From the NCBI RefSeq assembly GCF_009827495.1, contig NZ_WTZA01000001.1:310001-374000 (forward strand): a stretch of DNA of 64,000 nt, written 5' to 3'. The first letter of the stretch is position 1. Every line of letters starts with the position of its first letter. A model generated the notes under the pieces. The model was not told the origin of the DNA. It was given only the letters and a program-made list of their open reading frames with translations, and did no database searches. The stretch comes from Tsuneonella aeria (lineage in GTDB: Bacteria > Pseudomonadota > Alphaproteobacteria > Sphingomonadales > Sphingomonadaceae). Positions 29,494 through 35,593 of the stretch are shown one piece after another. The position numbers and the translations under genes were made by a program.

Positions 29494-31845
29494 ATGGGTA
29501 CAGTCGCAGACAAGTCCACGGCAGACGGACAGCGGGCGAGGGTGGGACCCTTGCGCGCCTGGCTGCGCCGTGCGCTCGCGTGGCGACGCCGCGGTCGGCC
29601 GATCGATCCGCGCACCCGGATTCTGGCATGGGCGATCGGTCTCGGCCTGATCTCCGGCGCGATCGAACTGTTCGAACCGCTGGAAGACGCCTTCCGCGCC
29701 GTGCGCGCCATGGTGCGCGAACACCCGGCCGATCAATCGATTGTCGTGGTGAATGTCGACGAATACTCGCTCAGCGTCCTCGGCGGGAACGAACCCCGGC
29801 GCAGCGACGACGCGAAGCTGCTCGACAACCTGTTCGCCATGGGCGCCAAGCGGGTGTTCTTCGACCGCGCCTACGCCGACCTGTCGACGCCAGCGGAAGA
29901 CGCCAAGCTGGTCGAGGCCTTCAAGCGGTATCGTGGCCGGGTGTTCGTTGGGGCGGTTCCCAACGTTAAGCGCATCAGCGGTGAAAACCTGAACCTGAAG
30001 CCCAATCCTTACTTTGCGCCGCATGTGAACATTGTAAGTATACTTGGCCAGGAAGGTCCGCTTGGCCTCGCTATCCGTTTTCCGACCGAGAGTAAAATCG
30101 GCGGCGAGGCAAAGCCGTCCCTGTCAGCAGAACTGGCGAACGTTCGACTTCCTGAGCAGATGTACAGGATCGATCTGGCGATCGACCACGCGACAGTGCC
30201 CACAATGCACTATCTCGATCTTCTCAACGGGGACATTGATCGGGCAGCGGTAGCGGGCAAGGATTTTGTCGTTAGCCCACCAAGCCGGATGACGTACGAC
30301 TTCCACCCGATACCGTTCCAACAAAAGGTCGCTGGCGCTATCCTTCATGCGGTCGGCGCGCAAACGCTGAAGAAAGGCGTTCCCATCGAATCCGGCTGGA
30401 TAATGCCCTTCCTGGTGGCGTGCGCGTTCCTGTTGTACCAGGCCCGGCGCGTCCGCCCGTCGCGGACCCAGTTCGCGGCCGTTGCCGGCCTCCTCCTTAT
30501 CGTGCCTCTTGGACTGGACTTCCTCCTCATCAACGTGGACATCTTTGCCGCAATTTGTGCGCTCGCGATCGGCGGGGTGCGGTTCCACATGCTCGATCGC
30601 ATGTCTTACCGGGGCTCGACCGATTTGCGCCGTATCGAGACGGCGATCGACATGCGCAGCGACAGCGGAACGGAAGTGCTGGCCATCAAGCTGCGCAACT
30701 TCGCCACGATCAGTGCAAACCTGGCCGCAGAGCAGGTGGATGAATTGCTCGGCAAAGTGCAGGCCCGGCTACGCGCGACGCAGCCCGATGCGGAATTCCT
30801 TTTTGAAAAAGACACGTTCGTCTGGCTGCAACCCCGTGTCGACGGCGAGCTGCTGGAAGACCACTTGCGCGGGCTCCACGCCCTGTTCAACATCAACATA
30901 ACGGTAGGGGCGCATTCGCCCGACGTGGCAACCGCTATCGGCGCTGACACGAATTACTCTTCGCCACTGCGCGAGCGGATCGAAAGTGCAATCCAGTGCG
31001 CCGAGGATGCCGCGCGTGCCGGCCGGATTTTCATGATCAGCGAGGAGGATATCGTCGAGGATCGGGCCTGGCGCCTGGAGATCCTGTCCGAGCTTGAAAG
31101 CGCCATCCGGCACAACGAGGTGGAAGTCCTCTATCAGCCCAAGGTGTCTCTGAAGAGCGGCGCAATCATCGGCGCCGAAGCCCTGCTGCGCTGGCGGCAC
31201 CCCGTTCGCGGGATGATCGATCCATCGAAGGTCATCAAGATCGCCGAGGAGCACAACCGCGTCGACATGATCACGCGCTTCGTCCTCAATCGCGCCTTGA
31301 GCCAGGCGCGGGCCGCGATCGCAGCGGACCCGGCATTTCGCATCGCCATCAATATTTCCGCGCTCGATCTGCGCGATCCCCTGTTCACACGCCAGCTTCG
31401 CCAGTTGCTGAAGGCATACCGCGTTCCTGCCGGCAACCTGGTGATCGAAATCACCGAGACTGCCCCGATCGACAATGACGAGGTCGTGGCTGCCGTCTTC
31501 GCCGAGATCAAAGCGATGGGGGTGAAGCTGTCGGTGGACGATTTCGGCATGGGTCACGCTTCGCTGCATTACTTGCGGCGCATTCCGGCGGACGAGGTCA
31601 AGATCGATCGCAGTTTCGTGTCCGGCATGGACAACTGCGCGGAGGACGCGGCGCTCGTGCGATCTGCGATCGAGATGATCCATTCACTCGGGCGGATCGC
31701 CGTTGCCGAAGGCGTCGAGCGCCCGGTGCTGGTGCAGCGCCTTCACGAAATGGGATGCGACGCGGCCCAAGGGTATCATTTCTCGAAGGCCATCCCGATG
31801 GCCCAGCTACTGCCACAACTCCGGGACAAAGCCGTGGCCGCTTAA
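29494..31845 (+). CDS. CHASE2 – degenerate GGDEF – EAL cyclic-di-GMP phosphodiesterase
   Basis: 783 residues. One N-terminal membrane helix (about 44–64), a periplasmic CHASE2 sensor (65–300), two or three membrane helices (about 303–367), a diguanylate-cyclase-like domain lacking the GGDEF motif (around 380–510; AEFLFEKDTFVWLQP occupies its place), and a full EAL domain (530–775). EAL residues are intact: E562 in EALLRW, Asn in INISALDLRD, Glu in EITETAP, D682-D683 in DDFGMG, Lys in VKIDRSF, Glu in EGVER and Q759 in QGY. It should hydrolyse c-di-GMP in response to an external cue. The DDFGMG form replaces the usual DDFGTG. Confidence 0.92.
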   Translation: MGTVADKSTADGQRARVGPLRAWLRRALAWRRRGRPIDPRTRILAWAIGLGLISGAIELFEPLEDAFRAVRAMVREHPADQSIVVVNVDEYSLSVLGGNEPRRSDDAKLLDNLFAMGAKRVFFDRAYADLSTPAEDAKLVEAFKRYRGRVFVGAVPNVKRISGENLNLKPNPYFAPHVNIVSILGQEGPLGLAIRFPTESKIGGEAKPSLSAELANVRLPEQMYRIDLAIDHATVPTMHYLDLLNGDIDRAAVAGKDFVVSPPSRMTYDFHPIPFQQKVAGAILHAVGAQTLKKGVPIESGWIMPFLVACAFLLYQARRVRPSRTQFAAVAGLLLIVPLGLDFLLINVDIFAAICALAIGGVRFHMLDRMSYRGSTDLRRIETAIDMRSDSGTEVLAIKLRNFATISANLAAEQVDELLGKVQARLRATQPDAEFLFEKDTFVWLQPRVDGELLEDHLRGLHALFNINITVGAHSPDVATAIGADTNYSSPLRERIESAIQCAEDAARAGRIFMISEEDIVEDRAWRLEILSELESAIRHNEVEVLYQPKVSLKSGAIIGAEALLRWRHPVRGMIDPSKVIKIAEEHNRVDMITRFVLNRALSQARAAIAADPAFRIAINISALDLRDPLFTRQLRQLLKAYRVPAGNLVIEITETAPIDNDEVVAAVFAEIKAMGVKLSVDDFGMGHASLHYLRRIPADEVKIDRSFVSGMDNCAEDAALVRSAIEMIHSLGRIAVAEGVERPVLVQRLHEMGCDAAQGYHFSKAIPMAQLLPQLRDKAVAA

Positions 31846-31914
31846 CAGTTTATTTACCCTTAAGATTTTGGTAACGCCTTTTGTTAGCACGCCCGTGCAA
31901 ACAGGAGGAAAACC

Positions 31915-31977
31915 ATGCTGTTCAAGCTCACCGTGGGCATCTGGGACTGGATGACCGAACTTTTCGGCGGTCGCTGA
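31915..31977 (+). CDS. 20-residue amphipathic small protein (unrecognised)
   Basis: ATG at 31915 is preceded by a near-perfect AGGAGG at 31903–31908. The peptide is MLFKLTVGIWDWMTELFGGR, ending at TGA 31975–31977. Hydrophobic residues fall on one helical face (L2, L5, I9, W12, L16) while K4, D11 and E15 line the other, so an amphipathic membrane-associating helix is likely. A strong terminator begins 18 bases after the stop, and the next gene is convergent, so this is neither a leader peptide nor an upstream ORF of a plus-strand gene. The EAL gene ends 69 bases upstream and may share the transcript. I do not recognise the sequence. Confidence 0.6.
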   Translation: MLFKLTVGIWDWMTELFGGR

Positions 31978-31994
31978 GCCAATCGAAAGAATTG

Positions 31995-32022
31995 AAAAGC
32001 CCCGGTTTTTCCGGGGCTTTTT
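31995..32022 (+). terminator. Bidirectional rho-independent terminator
   Basis: AAAAGCCCCGG / CCGGGGCTTTTT with a TTTTT loop. The T-tract serves the plus strand (small ORF and EAL gene); the A-tract on the left gives four Ts on the minus strand, so it could also stop mfd transcripts, whose stop codon is at 32111. Confidence 0.85.
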
Positions 32023-32110: not shown

Positions 32111-35100
32111 TCATGCCGCCTTCTTCGCCTTCCCTGCGCGCCGGGCCACCCCGCTCAGCCCCTTGGTGAGCTGCAGCAGACCGTTGAGACGGCTGTTCGC
32201 ATCGCCCCATGCGCGCGAGAGGACAAGCTTCATGTCCGGGCGTAACCGGGCGTCCGGTCCGACCCGCTCTACCCACGCCAGCAATCCGGCCGGGTCGGGA
32301 AAATCGTCGTTGTGGAACGTGACCAGCGTGCCCCGGGCGCCGACGTCGATCTTGGCGATATTGGCCTCGATCGCGCGGTGCTTGATCTCGATCAGCTTGA
32401 CGAGGTTGGCGGTCGCCGGCGGCAGGGGGCCGAACCTGTCGATCATCTCGGCCGCCAGTCCTTCGATCTCGCCCTGATCGCGCGCGTCGTTGAGCCGCCG
32501 GTAAATCGCCATGCGTACGGCGAGGTCCGGCACGTAATCCTCGGGGATCATGATCGGCGCATCGACGGTGATCTGGGGCGAGGGGCCCGCCTCCCGCACG
32601 ACGCCGGAGTCGCCCGCCTTGGCGGCCAGGATCGCGTCCTCCAGCATGGATTGGTACAACTCGAAGCCCACTTCGCGGATATGGCCGGATTGTTCGTCAC
32701 CCAGCAGGTTGCCGGCCCCCCGGATGTCGAGATCGTGGCTGGCCAGCTGAAACCCGGCGCCCAGCGAATCGAGATCGCCCAGGACCTTCAGGCGTTTTTC
32801 CGCGACTTCGCTGAGCGCCGTGTCGGGGGTCGTGGTGAGGTAGGCGTACGCGCGCCGCTTCGATCGGCCGACCCGTCCGCGGAGCTGGTACAACTGCGCC
32901 AGACCGAACCGGTCGGCCCGGTGAATGACGATCGTGTTGGCGCTCGGGATATCGAGCCCGCTTTCGACGATCGTCGTCGACAGCAGCACTTCGTAGCGCC
33001 CGTCGTAGAACGCGCTCATCCGTTCTTCCACCTCGGTGGGGCTCATCTGCCCGTGTGCGCTGATGGATTTCACTTCCGGCACATGGCTGGCGAGCCACTG
33101 TTCCACCTGCGGCATGTCGGCGATGCGCGGCACCACGATGAAGCTCTGGCCGCCGCGGTGATGTTCGCGCAGCAGCGCCTCGCGCATCACCATGTCGTCC
33201 CATTCCATGACGTAGGTCCGCACCGCGAGACGATCGACCGGCGGGGTCTGGATGGTCGAAAGCTCGCGCAGCCCGCTCATCGCCATCTGCAGCGTGCGGG
33301 GGATGGGCGTCGCGGTGAGGGTAAGCACGTGGACGTCCGCGCGCAGCTGCTTGAGCTTCTCCTTGTGCGTCACGCCGAAGCGCTGTTCCTCGTCCACGAT
33401 CACCAGGCCGAGATTCTTGAACTGCGTGCTCTTCGACAGGATGGCGTGCGTGCCCACCACCACGTCGATATCGCCGCTGGCCAGCCCGTCGCGGGTCTCT
33501 GACATTTCCTTCGCCGTGACCAGCCGGCTGAGCCGCCCGACCTTGAGCGGAAAGCCGGAGAAACGCGCCGCGAAGTTCTCGTGGTGCTGGCGGGCGAGCA
33601 GGGTGGTGGGCGCGACCACCGCGACCTGCCGCCCGCTCATTGCGGTGGCGAAGGCGGCCCGCAGCGCGACTTCCGTCTTGCCGAAGCCCACGTCGCCGCA
33701 CACCAGGCGGTCCATCGGGCGGCCACTGGCGAGATCTTCCAGCACCTCGTCGATGGCGCGGTCCTGATCGTCGGTTTCCTCCCACGGGAAGCGGTCGACG
33801 AACTGGTTGAAGCTCGCTTCCTCCGTCTCGACCACGGCAGCCTTGCGCAACGCGCGGGCGGCCGCGGTGCGCAGCAGTTCGTGGGCGATCTCGCGGATGC
33901 GTTCCTTGAGGCGCGAGCGGCGCTTCTGCCAGGCCTCTCCGCCCAGCCGATCGAGCCCGACCATCTCCTCGCTCGATCCGTAACGGCTGAGCACCTCGAG
34001 GTTCTCGACCGGGACGTAGAGCTTGTCGCCGCCGTGGTATTCCAGCATCACGCAGTCGTGCTGCGACTTGCCGACGGGGATCGCTTCCAGCCCCAGGTAC
34101 TTGCCGATGCCGTGATCGATGTGGACGACCAGGTCCCCGGCGTTGAGCGCCTGGAGCTCGGCGAGGAAGGCGTCCGCGCTCTTGCGGCGTTTCTTGCGCC
34201 GGACCAGCCTGTCGCCCAACAGGTCCGCCTCGGTAACGAAATCGATCTGTTCGCTGGCGAACCCGGTTTCGAGCGGCAGGACGATGGCGACGGCGCGGCC
34301 CTTGGCCGACATGCCGAGTGCTTCCTGCCAGCTTTCGGCCAGTTCCATCGGTGCGCCAGCTTCCGTAACGATCGACGCGATACGGGCGCGGCTGCCCTTG
34401 GAATAGGCGGCCAGGAGCGGGCGCTTGCCGGCCTTGCCCACTGCCTTCAGGTGATCCGCCGCCGCGGCGTAGAGATTGTCGCCCGATCCGTTCGCGATGC
34501 GGGCGCGCTCCGGCGCGAAATCGCGCCCCGACTGGAACCCGAAATCGACCACGGCAGGCCCCTCGGGCTCAGCGAAGATCGACGCGCGGTGTATCGGCCG
34601 GTCGCGCATCTGCGCCGCCAGCTCGTCTTGCGTTAGGTAGAGCGCGTCTTCGGGGAGGGGGCGATAGGTCCCTTCCTCGCGCTGGCGGTGGTAATCGGCA
34701 ATGTCGCCGAAGCGCTCTTCCGCGGCGGTCACCGCGGCGCTGTCGATGACGATCAGGTCCTCGCCTGACAGGTGATCGAACAGCGTGGCGAGCCGGTCCT
34801 CGAACAGGGGTAGCCAGTGCTCCATCCCGGCAAGCCGGCGGCCGTCGCTGATCGCCTGGTAGAGCGGGTCCTGCGTGGCATTGGCGCCGAACATTTCGCG
34901 ATAGCGCGAACGGAACCGCTTGATCGTATCGGCATCGAGCAGCGCCTCGCTCGCAGGGAGAAGCAGGTGCCGGTCGAGCGTGCCCGTGGTCATCTGCGTG
35001 GTGGGGTCGAACAGGCGCAGCGATTCCAGGTCGTCGCCGAAGAAATCGAGCCGCAGGCCGGATTCGATGCCGGAGGGGAACACGTCGAAGATCGAACCGC

Positions 35101-35593
35101 GCACCGCGAATTCGCCATGATCGATCACGGTATCGGTACGGTTGTATCCCTGCCGCTGCAGCAGAGTGATCAGCGCTTCGCGCGCGATGACCATGCCGGG
35201 CTTCAGTTCCTGCACCGCCTCGCGCACGCGGAAGGGGGTGAGCACACGCTGGAGCAGGGCGTTGGAAGTGGTTACGAGGAGTTGCGGCGCCTTGCCGCCC
35301 GCTTGCAGCCGATGGAGCGCCGCCAGCCTTCTCGCGCTCACTGCCAGGGCAGGGCTTGCGCGGTCATACGGAAGGCAGTCCCATGCCGGGAACTCGATGA
35401 CCTCCAGCTCCGGCGCGAAGTAGTGCGCCGCATCCGCGACCGAGCGCATGGCGGCCTCGTCGGGCGCGACGAAAACCGCACGTCCCTTTGCCGCACGGGC
35501 AAGGTCGGCCATCACCAGCGGCTGTGCCCCGCGCGGGATGGACGAGAGTGTCAGCGGCTGACGGGCGGTGAGGATCGTCTTGAGGTCGGGCAT
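32111..35593 (-). CDS. mfd: Transcription-repair coupling factor Mfd
   Basis: 1160 residues. Mfd removes stalled RNA polymerase and recruits UvrA. The N-terminal UvrB-like region contains YDRASPALAVSARRLAALHRL, followed by the RNAP-interacting domain (VVHIDHGIGKYLGLEAI), then helicase motifs GDVGFGKTEVALRAAF (Walker A), IVDEEQRFGVTHKE (DEEQ box), LTLTATPIPRTLQMAMSGLR and the QLRGRVGRSK motif VI. The C-terminal D7 domain ends with Lys/Ala. Size matches the family (about 1150). Confidence 0.97.
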   Translation of the reverse strand: MPDLKTILTARQPLTLSSIPRGAQPLVMADLARAAKGRAVFVAPDEAAMRSVADAAHYFAPELEVIEFPAWDCLPYDRASPALAVSARRLAALHRLQAGGKAPQLLVTTSNALLQRVLTPFRVREAVQELKPGMVIAREALITLLQRQGYNRTDTVIDHGEFAVRGSIFDVFPSGIESGLRLDFFGDDLESLRLFDPTTQMTTGTLDRHLLLPASEALLDADTIKRFRSRYREMFGANATQDPLYQAISDGRRLAGMEHWLPLFEDRLATLFDHLSGEDLIVIDSAAVTAAEERFGDIADYHRQREEGTYRPLPEDALYLTQDELAAQMRDRPIHRASIFAEPEGPAVVDFGFQSGRDFAPERARIANGSGDNLYAAAADHLKAVGKAGKRPLLAAYSKGSRARIASIVTEAGAPMELAESWQEALGMSAKGRAVAIVLPLETGFASEQIDFVTEADLLGDRLVRRKKRRKSADAFLAELQALNAGDLVVHIDHGIGKYLGLEAIPVGKSQHDCVMLEYHGGDKLYVPVENLEVLSRYGSSEEMVGLDRLGGEAWQKRRSRLKERIREIAHELLRTAAARALRKAAVVETEEASFNQFVDRFPWEETDDQDRAIDEVLEDLASGRPMDRLVCGDVGFGKTEVALRAAFATAMSGRQVAVVAPTTLLARQHHENFAARFSGFPLKVGRLSRLVTAKEMSETRDGLASGDIDVVVGTHAILSKSTQFKNLGLVIVDEEQRFGVTHKEKLKQLRADVHVLTLTATPIPRTLQMAMSGLRELSTIQTPPVDRLAVRTYVMEWDDMVMREALLREHHRGGQSFIVVPRIADMPQVEQWLASHVPEVKSISAHGQMSPTEVEERMSAFYDGRYEVLLSTTIVESGLDIPSANTIVIHRADRFGLAQLYQLRGRVGRSKRRAYAYLTTTPDTALSEVAEKRLKVLGDLDSLGAGFQLASHDLDIRGAGNLLGDEQSGHIREVGFELYQSMLEDAILAAKAGDSGVVREAGPSPQITVDAPIMIPEDYVPDLAVRMAIYRRLNDARDQGEIEGLAAEMIDRFGPLPPATANLVKLIEIKHRAIEANIAKIDVGARGTLVTFHNDDFPDPAGLLAWVERVGPDARLRPDMKLVLSRAWGDANSRLNGLLQLTKGLSGVARRAGKAKKAA

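Follow-up and report, generated by a model that had tools for sequence, protein, structure and literature searches.

A conserved micropeptide gene beside a CHASE2-EAL phosphodiesterase gene of Sphingomonadaceae, and its possible role as a dedicated partner of the enzyme

Introduction

AcrZ, KdpF and MgtS are small-protein regulators of larger membrane proteins. The peptide described here resembles them in being very short and in being encoded near the gene of a membrane-bound target or under common regulation with it; by analogy, we propose that it would likewise modulate this target by binding. It differs in that members of its family go down to 11 amino acids (aa), a length that cannot span a membrane, in that the proposed target is a c-di-GMP phosphodiesterase (PDE), and in having no match in Pfam or NCBIfam.

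Two further systems bear on the leader of the gene. RNA thermometers of the ROSE/fourU type are leaders that sequester the Shine-Dalgarno (SD) sequence. The peptide leader is similar in that it is short and its hairpin pairs the ribosome-binding site, but in our window Rfam assigns it to no such family, and covariation within the genus does not rise above controls. The other system is the CtrA regulon, whose consensus is given as TTAA-N7-TTAAC for Hyphomonas (excerpt of PMC7200025). Motif scanning and transcriptome data from Sphingomonas sp. WG are reported to show a c-di-GMP phosphodiesterase raised together with CtrA, and CtrA of S. melonis is cited as governing motility and c-di-GMP signalling (both in the excerpt of PMC8921679). 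The peptide leaders share TTAA-N7-TTAA boxes with this regulon of S. melonis, Sphingomonas sp. WG and Hyphomonas; the difference is that the box at the peptide gene is a putative one, assigned by motif.

Sphingomonads are abundant in soil, in water and on plants, and we found little in print on the enzymes that set their c-di-GMP level. Here, we analyze a short open reading frame (ORF) behind a PDE gene of Tsuneonella aeria, in a stretch of 64,000 nt referred to as the window (contig NZ_WTZA01000001.1, positions 310,001 to 374,000), and its relatives throughout the Sphingomonadaceae. A preliminary description of this DNA had noted neither the peptide family nor its exclusive pairing with a single group of PDE orthologues, and the CtrA-like box and the leader that pairs the SD had likewise escaped it.

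Results

An SD-led ORF and a terminator lie between a PDE gene and mfd

The features of the locus are collected in Table 1; G, L and C numbers below are our own labels for genomes, loci and contigs. The preliminary description had reported a 20-codon ORF with two Trp, a strong SD and a terminator shortly 3′ of it, and all of these can be read from the sequence: the ATG at 31915 lies 6 nt beyond AGGAGG, the frame ends with TGA at 31975-31977, and a 7-bp G+C stem (AAAAGCCCCGG/CCGGGGCTTTT, 31995-32021), which begins 17 nt past the stop, is followed on the plus strand by the T tract TTTTTGAT. An SD of this strength is unusual in the window, where 5 of 40 genes match it at 5-6 of the 6 positions (genes chosen mechanically, with the start taken for the best SD). 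The terminator scan of the window listed the 31995-32022 element on the minus strand only; it is near-palindromic and could also serve mfd on that strand. Across the family, 60 of 69 loci have a terminator 3′ of the ORF vs. 66 of 1380 shuffles.

Table 1. Features of the peptide locus in the 64,000-nt window.
Feature	Position	Strand	Basis and remarks
CHASE2 - degenerate GGDEF - EAL c-di-GMP phosphodiesterase, 783 aa	29494..31845	+	Pfam; conserved partner gene
Putative CtrA-like box TTAA-GATTTTG-GTAAC	31860..31875	+	Sequence; one mismatch to TTAA-N7-TTAA
Predicted leader hairpin CCTTTTGTT-a-GCAC-GCCC-GTGC-a-AACAGGAGG	31877..31908	+	Fold; pairs the whole SD
Shine-Dalgarno AGGAGG	31903..31908	+	Sequence; 6 nt ahead of ATG
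Micropeptide ORF MLFKLTVGIWDWMTELFGGR, 20 aa	31915..31977 (with stop)	+	Sequence, family comparisons
Intrinsic terminator (GC stem, T tract)	31995..32022	+	Sequence, terminator scan, family test
mfd (transcription-repair coupling factor)	32111..35593	-	Pfam; convergent with the ORF

The EAL (5.1e-70) and CHASE2 (2.5e-12) domains of the window PDE are recognized by Pfam, and its GGDEF domain scores 20.2 bits, below the cut-off of 23.8. Nine EAL-domain positions, the catalytic ones of this family, are identical in 67 of 67 peptide-linked PDE rows; in the 18 PDE rows lacking an adjoining peptide, the EAL positions are intact save for one E to D change. The gap between PDE and ORF is 69 nt. The two share a reading frame across 31843-31914, with three stops between them if the PDE's own is counted, and a read-through fusion of PDE and peptide was considered and set aside. 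Only 11 of 34 loci have an in-frame spacing, which makes it unlikely that read-through is what the arrangement serves. An Rfam scan of the window gave four tRNAs and no other match, and so no family of SD-sequestering leaders.

PDE and peptide stay together while neighborhoods change

Within the genus Tsuneonella, the PDE was detected at E ≤ 1e-60 in 8 of 11 genomes, and in all eight a cognate SD-led ORF of 12-20 aa follows it directly, 67-70 nt past the PDE stop. Besides the window peptide, these are MSIFVASIWEWVEWFLGGR, MSIWKFWNDVFGGR, MSIWSGWRALFGGN, MWAWFRDVWGGR, MSFWEWFENCFGGR, MSIWNWFDRVLGGR and MSIWGYVTWFLGGR. Their lengths differ by whole codons, the frame being kept in 8 of 8 PDE-bearing genomes, and one Trp and a Gly-Gly are invariant; the conservation in relatives on which the preliminary description had made the gene depend is present. 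An RNA model of the region, R1, scores 125-156 bits in the same eight genomes (in its consensus the CtrA-like box forms one arm of a hairpin, unlike in the leader structure that we propose below). The other three genomes of the genus (G001, G004 and G005) have neither the PDE at E ≤ 1e-60 nor an R1 match above 24 bits, an apparent joint loss of PDE and peptide. Among the R1 matches inspected outside the genus most were terminators, and the exceptions in G016 (38 bits), G031 and G022 led to a comparison of the regions downstream of the PDE.

Within about 1.4 kb on either side of the pair, mfd was found downstream of the ORF in all 8 genus loci and bamD upstream in 7 of them, vs. 0 of 26 loci elsewhere for each. 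Only the PDE and the peptide stay together while their neighborhoods change, an adjacency that is evidence of coupling, not of contact. A short ORF with Trp codons and a terminator hairpin next to it would also suit a leader peptide, in which ribosome stalling at the Trp codons controls the downstream gene by attenuation. However, the downstream gene in the window is convergent, mfd holds this position in the genus loci and in none of the others, and the ORF has been relocated intact in G189 and lies behind an insertion in G155 (see below). This turnover of neighbors refutes the leader peptide as a general explanation, in agreement with the preliminary description, and we consider it highly improbable. 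In one genome, G254, a stretch resembling mfd is found on the upstream side of the PDE.

The peptide accompanies one PDE orthologue group across Sphingomonadaceae

We searched 249 Sphingomonadaceae genomes for the PDE, which gave a match at E ≤ 1e-80 in 67, and read the regions downstream. Across the family, the slot 3′ of the PDE holds peptides that range from 11 to 42 aa and share a core, mostly [FI]-W-[DE]-W-[LIVM]-x-G (the F-W-D-W type); [FILVW]-W-x-W is present in 55 of 69 peptides. Examples are MKNKKPNKGFWDWLLGGGWGSTGTGG and MAKRTKQPVRGFWDWLLGGGWSN, as well as MWSFWDWLFPG and MWDIWEWIFGR, whose loci were found via the peptide profile. Longer members have a basic N-terminal tail, an aromatic FWDWL core and a Gly-rich end, and the very divergent ones include MTGGWLWSFLFK (G144) and that of G035, which has no W-x-W. 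The loci number 87 in all, 11 of them picked through peptide hits; the PDE-first sample therefore consists of 76 PDE loci (8 from the genus, 26 and 42 from the family search), of which 58 have the peptide ORF.

A PDE tree of 85 of the 87 loci (quick method, SH-aLRT support only; G272 and G255, both with peptide, are absent as the full PDE was not in the set) contains 67 rows with an adjoining peptide and 18 without. Sixteen of the 18 form a single paralogue clade (SH-aLRT 100), and the tree requires 3 label changes vs. a mean of 16.7 for shuffled labels. Six of these 16 PDEs share their genome with another copy that does have the peptide. The clade constitutes a second CHASE2-EAL group of the same family, with no such peptide behind it.

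The remaining two PDEs, in G189 and G155, belong to the orthologues, and their peptides have been displaced. In G189, the peptide gene is found on another contig (L235, contig C4) with its own TTAAC box, SD and ORF, and no PDE within the surrounding 4.8 kb. In G155 (L282), an IS4/5-type transposase gene (positions 235-1116; Pfam DDE_Tnp_1 and DUF4096) separates the PDE from the peptide (ATG at 1227), whose leader and ORF are intact beyond it; the insertion is a natural separation experiment for PDE and peptide. That peptide and leader survive both relocation and separation makes their own transcription likely, one of the options offered by the preliminary description. Counting these two displaced copies, the peptide is present in the genome of every one of the 60 PDE orthologues in the PDE-first sample, whereas it follows 0 of 16 paralogues.

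Searches from the peptide side lead back to the PDE

Whole-genome searches with a peptide profile, A3, gave 45 places at E ≤ 1e-3 in the 249 genomes, many of which had contributed to the profile. There is one strong match per genome (45 places in 45 genomes). All but one are on the strand of the PDE and at most 600 nt 3′ of it (44 of 45); the exception is the relocated copy of G189. Eight of the weaker matches (E 1e-3 to 0.05) were examined: six of them adjoin a diverged PDE, and those of G185 and G173 neither lie next to one nor resemble the peptide. In all, the weaker matches with no PDE or peptide were those in G185, G173 (two places) and G001, and a further eight weak matches that we inspected were attributed to chance. 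A weaker match in the same range in G197 fell on a locus already known from the PDE side.

A search at the level of the order, in 246 genomes, provided a cleaner test of the pairing. Thirty-six genomes matched at E ≤ 1e-3, all of them Sphingomonadaceae, and 20 of these had no earlier locus (19 were newly drawn, and one, G073, had given no match in an earlier search). The PDE lies just upstream in 20 of 20, and our ORF rule picks the peptide in 19; at the other, L312, PDE and profile match are present without a pick. We had also considered a chance ORF, maintained by its closeness to the end of a conserved gene, since short ORFs are common and 161 of 6900 dinucleotide-shuffled family regions (2.3%) contain one that satisfies our rules (an ATG, an SD, a length of 8-55 aa and an aromatic core). 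The split between orthologues and paralogues, together with these 20 genomes, refutes this explanation, and what probability it retains is negligible.

At the level of the class, 15 of 337 genomes matched at E ≤ 0.01, and the two that did so at E ≤ 1e-3 (G024 and G136) are of the same family. At this sensitivity, the PDE-peptide pair looks confined to Sphingomonadaceae, as judged by a profile that misses short Tsuneonella members; for G000, which has such a member, neither A3 nor the order search gave a match. A pattern search with GGAGN{3,9}ATGTCNWTYTGG matched 35 of the 249 family genomes at 37 places. The 3 places in the genus are the peptide, and 30 of the other 34 were read and look like chance; the pattern is too strict outside the genus because peptides there begin differently.

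Residues are kept, codons vary and no database family matches

In the 55 peptides with [FILVW]-W-x-W, residues hold and codons vary (Gly GGC/GGT/GGA, Leu CTC/CTG/CTT, Asp GAC/GAT). Between 18 overlapping pairs from the same genus, of the same length and with at least 60% identity, differences at codon positions 1, 2 and 3 number 45, 26 and 71, a moderately coding-like pattern with many replacements. Silent changes, named in the preliminary description as potential support, are found among the core codons, but replacing codons exceed silent ones over the pairs (57 vs. 46).

Pfam and NCBIfam were scanned with the 30 of 36 A3 members that have at least 20 residues, the window peptide among them, and no family was found at E ≤ 1. 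A search of 5.8 billion proteins yielded 104 relatives of the peptide at E ≤ 0.1, among them entries from Altererythrobacter atlanticus and Sphingomonas prati, and the names shown were 'hypothetical' or 'uncharacterized'. Seven rows of another profile, A5, were taken from database proteins. In the titles and opening lines of abstracts of open-licence PubMed Central literature we recognized no description of such a peptide, and none is given in the excerpts of PMC2877005, PMC8921679, PMC7200025 and PMC6429828. The family is large, unnamed and undescribed in Pfam, NCBIfam and the open-licence PubMed Central texts covered in this way, in keeping with the preliminary description, which called the protein undescribed.

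Its view of the helix as strongly amphipathic, on the other hand, did not survive comparison with permuted sequences. The helical moment of the window peptide is 0.41 for an 11-mer vs. a permuted mean of 0.43, with 52% of permutations as high, and for an 18-mer 17% of permutations are as high; over the family the median is 26%, with 8 of 69 members under 5%. An amphipathic toxin was rejected on this account. The wider proposal is that of a toxin-like or signal-like peptide, active on membranes or secreted, that is merely co-regulated with the PDE or, in a variant, is a ligand of the periplasmic CHASE2 domain. It is favored by the aromatic-rich core, the basic tail of many members (the 69 peptides average a net charge of +2), a helix predicted at low confidence and the fact that CHASE2 is a sensor domain. 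These moments no higher than permutations speak against it, as do the single strong match per genome and the existence of members with 11 aa, and overall we find it rather unlikely, though the strongest of the competing explanations.

A putative CtrA-like box and a predicted SD hairpin characterize the leader

A TTAAC box, CtrA-like by motif, is found in most members' leaders. Of 69 leaders, each taken as its last 140 nt, 41 contain TTAA-N7-TTAA with no more than one mismatch vs. 8.4% of shuffles, and 58 contain TTAACC, GGTTAA or GTTAAC vs. 9.9%; 28 of the 69 have no box within one mismatch and 14 have nothing closer than three. At the PDE start the box is less distinct than at the peptide, and TTAA-N7-TTAA within one mismatch was seen there in 2 of 34 loci and not at the window PDE (the regions scanned differ, and the PDE-start scan used both strands). 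GTTAAC, GGTTAA or TTAACC is nonetheless present near the PDE start in 13 of 34 loci vs. 3 of 34 and 1 of 34 in controls, suggesting a regulation common to PDE and peptide.

In the predicted fold of the window leader, the SD is paired with a probability of 1.00, and the minimum free energy has a z of -3.6 vs. SD-fixed shuffles. Over the 69 leaders, SD pairing averages 0.74 vs. 0.60 when the upstream part is shuffled (Wilcoxon p 1e-8); the mean z is -2.1, with z below -1.5 in 43 of 69 and pairing above 0.7 in 41 of 69. For 25 other window genes used as a control, the corresponding values are 0.61 vs. 0.60 for pairing and -0.47 for z, with 5 of 25 below -1.5. Covariation in hand-cut genus hairpins did not exceed that of shuffles, and on alignment A1, whose structure is a different one, it was mixed; support for the leader hairpin is accordingly that of fold energy.

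A short transcript with hairpins at its 5′ and 3′ ends and a leader more stable than shuffles could also point to a regulatory small RNA, perhaps of dual function, in which the hairpins and the SD-like stretch matter and the short ORF is secondary; the Rfam result for the window weighs neither for nor against this. The core amino acids are kept while codons vary, however, lengths change by whole codons, and hairpin sequences differ among genera. A small RNA is thus an improbable account, more so than a membrane-active or secreted peptide.

A joined-chain model places no peptide on the PDE with confidence

We modeled an artificial chain of PDE, linker and peptide with AlphaFold2 (31 sequences). 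The PDE is mostly well folded (mean pLDDT 86 overall), the linker (784-812) is disordered, at values below 50, and the peptide helix (811-824) is at about 55. The peptide was not confidently docked on the PDE in this model, whose output gives no contacts; contact is neither proven nor excluded by it. The lack of confident docking took direct binding from an even chance, in our estimation, to slightly below one, and lowered the probability of our main reading from 0.55 to 0.52.

Discussion

The locus holds an ORF with a conserved frame and core, associated with one PDE orthologue group and provided with its own leader, SD pairing and terminator; it is almost certainly a real, translated gene. 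Two properties that mark small-protein regulators, a conserved coding sequence and an exclusive genetic association with the PDE, are both found here, and the peptide is probably a functional partner of its PDE. Our main reading, that this is a micropeptide gene encoding a dedicated partner of the adjoining CHASE2-EAL PDE, has in our estimate a probability of about one half (0.52).

We propose that CtrA or a CtrA-like regulator would drive a transcript of roughly 100-150 nt, whose leader hairpin would restrain translation until it is melted or remodelled. The peptide would then act in trans, as the displaced copies in G189 and G155 indicate if they are functional, most likely by binding the membrane-anchored PDE; that it binds the PDE directly is a possibility that, after the joined-chain model, we put just short of even odds. 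Binding may change the activity, location or stability of the enzyme, and the peptide would thereby tie the motility and cell-cycle program to c-di-GMP breakdown. The most specific form of the idea, in which these regulatory micropeptides of at least 11 residues are dedicated, trans-acting subunits or modulators of CHASE2-EAL PDEs made from their own CtrA-controlled, SD-gated mini-mRNA, is put forward tentatively and is a shade less probable again.

If this is correct, the peptide genes would rank with the smallest known protein genes that are conserved, and would add a new layer of c-di-GMP control throughout one bacterial family. Gene callers easily overlook a conserved gene of 11-42 codons; tied as it is to a single group of PDE orthologues, it offers a direct handle on that PDE. 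With a target, a promoter class and a translational gate predicted, the minimal size of a conserved regulatory protein becomes a testable matter.

A search of genome contigs with the window PDE returned one relative, from Tsuneonella rigui, and the stretches of it and of G010 that were compared read alike.
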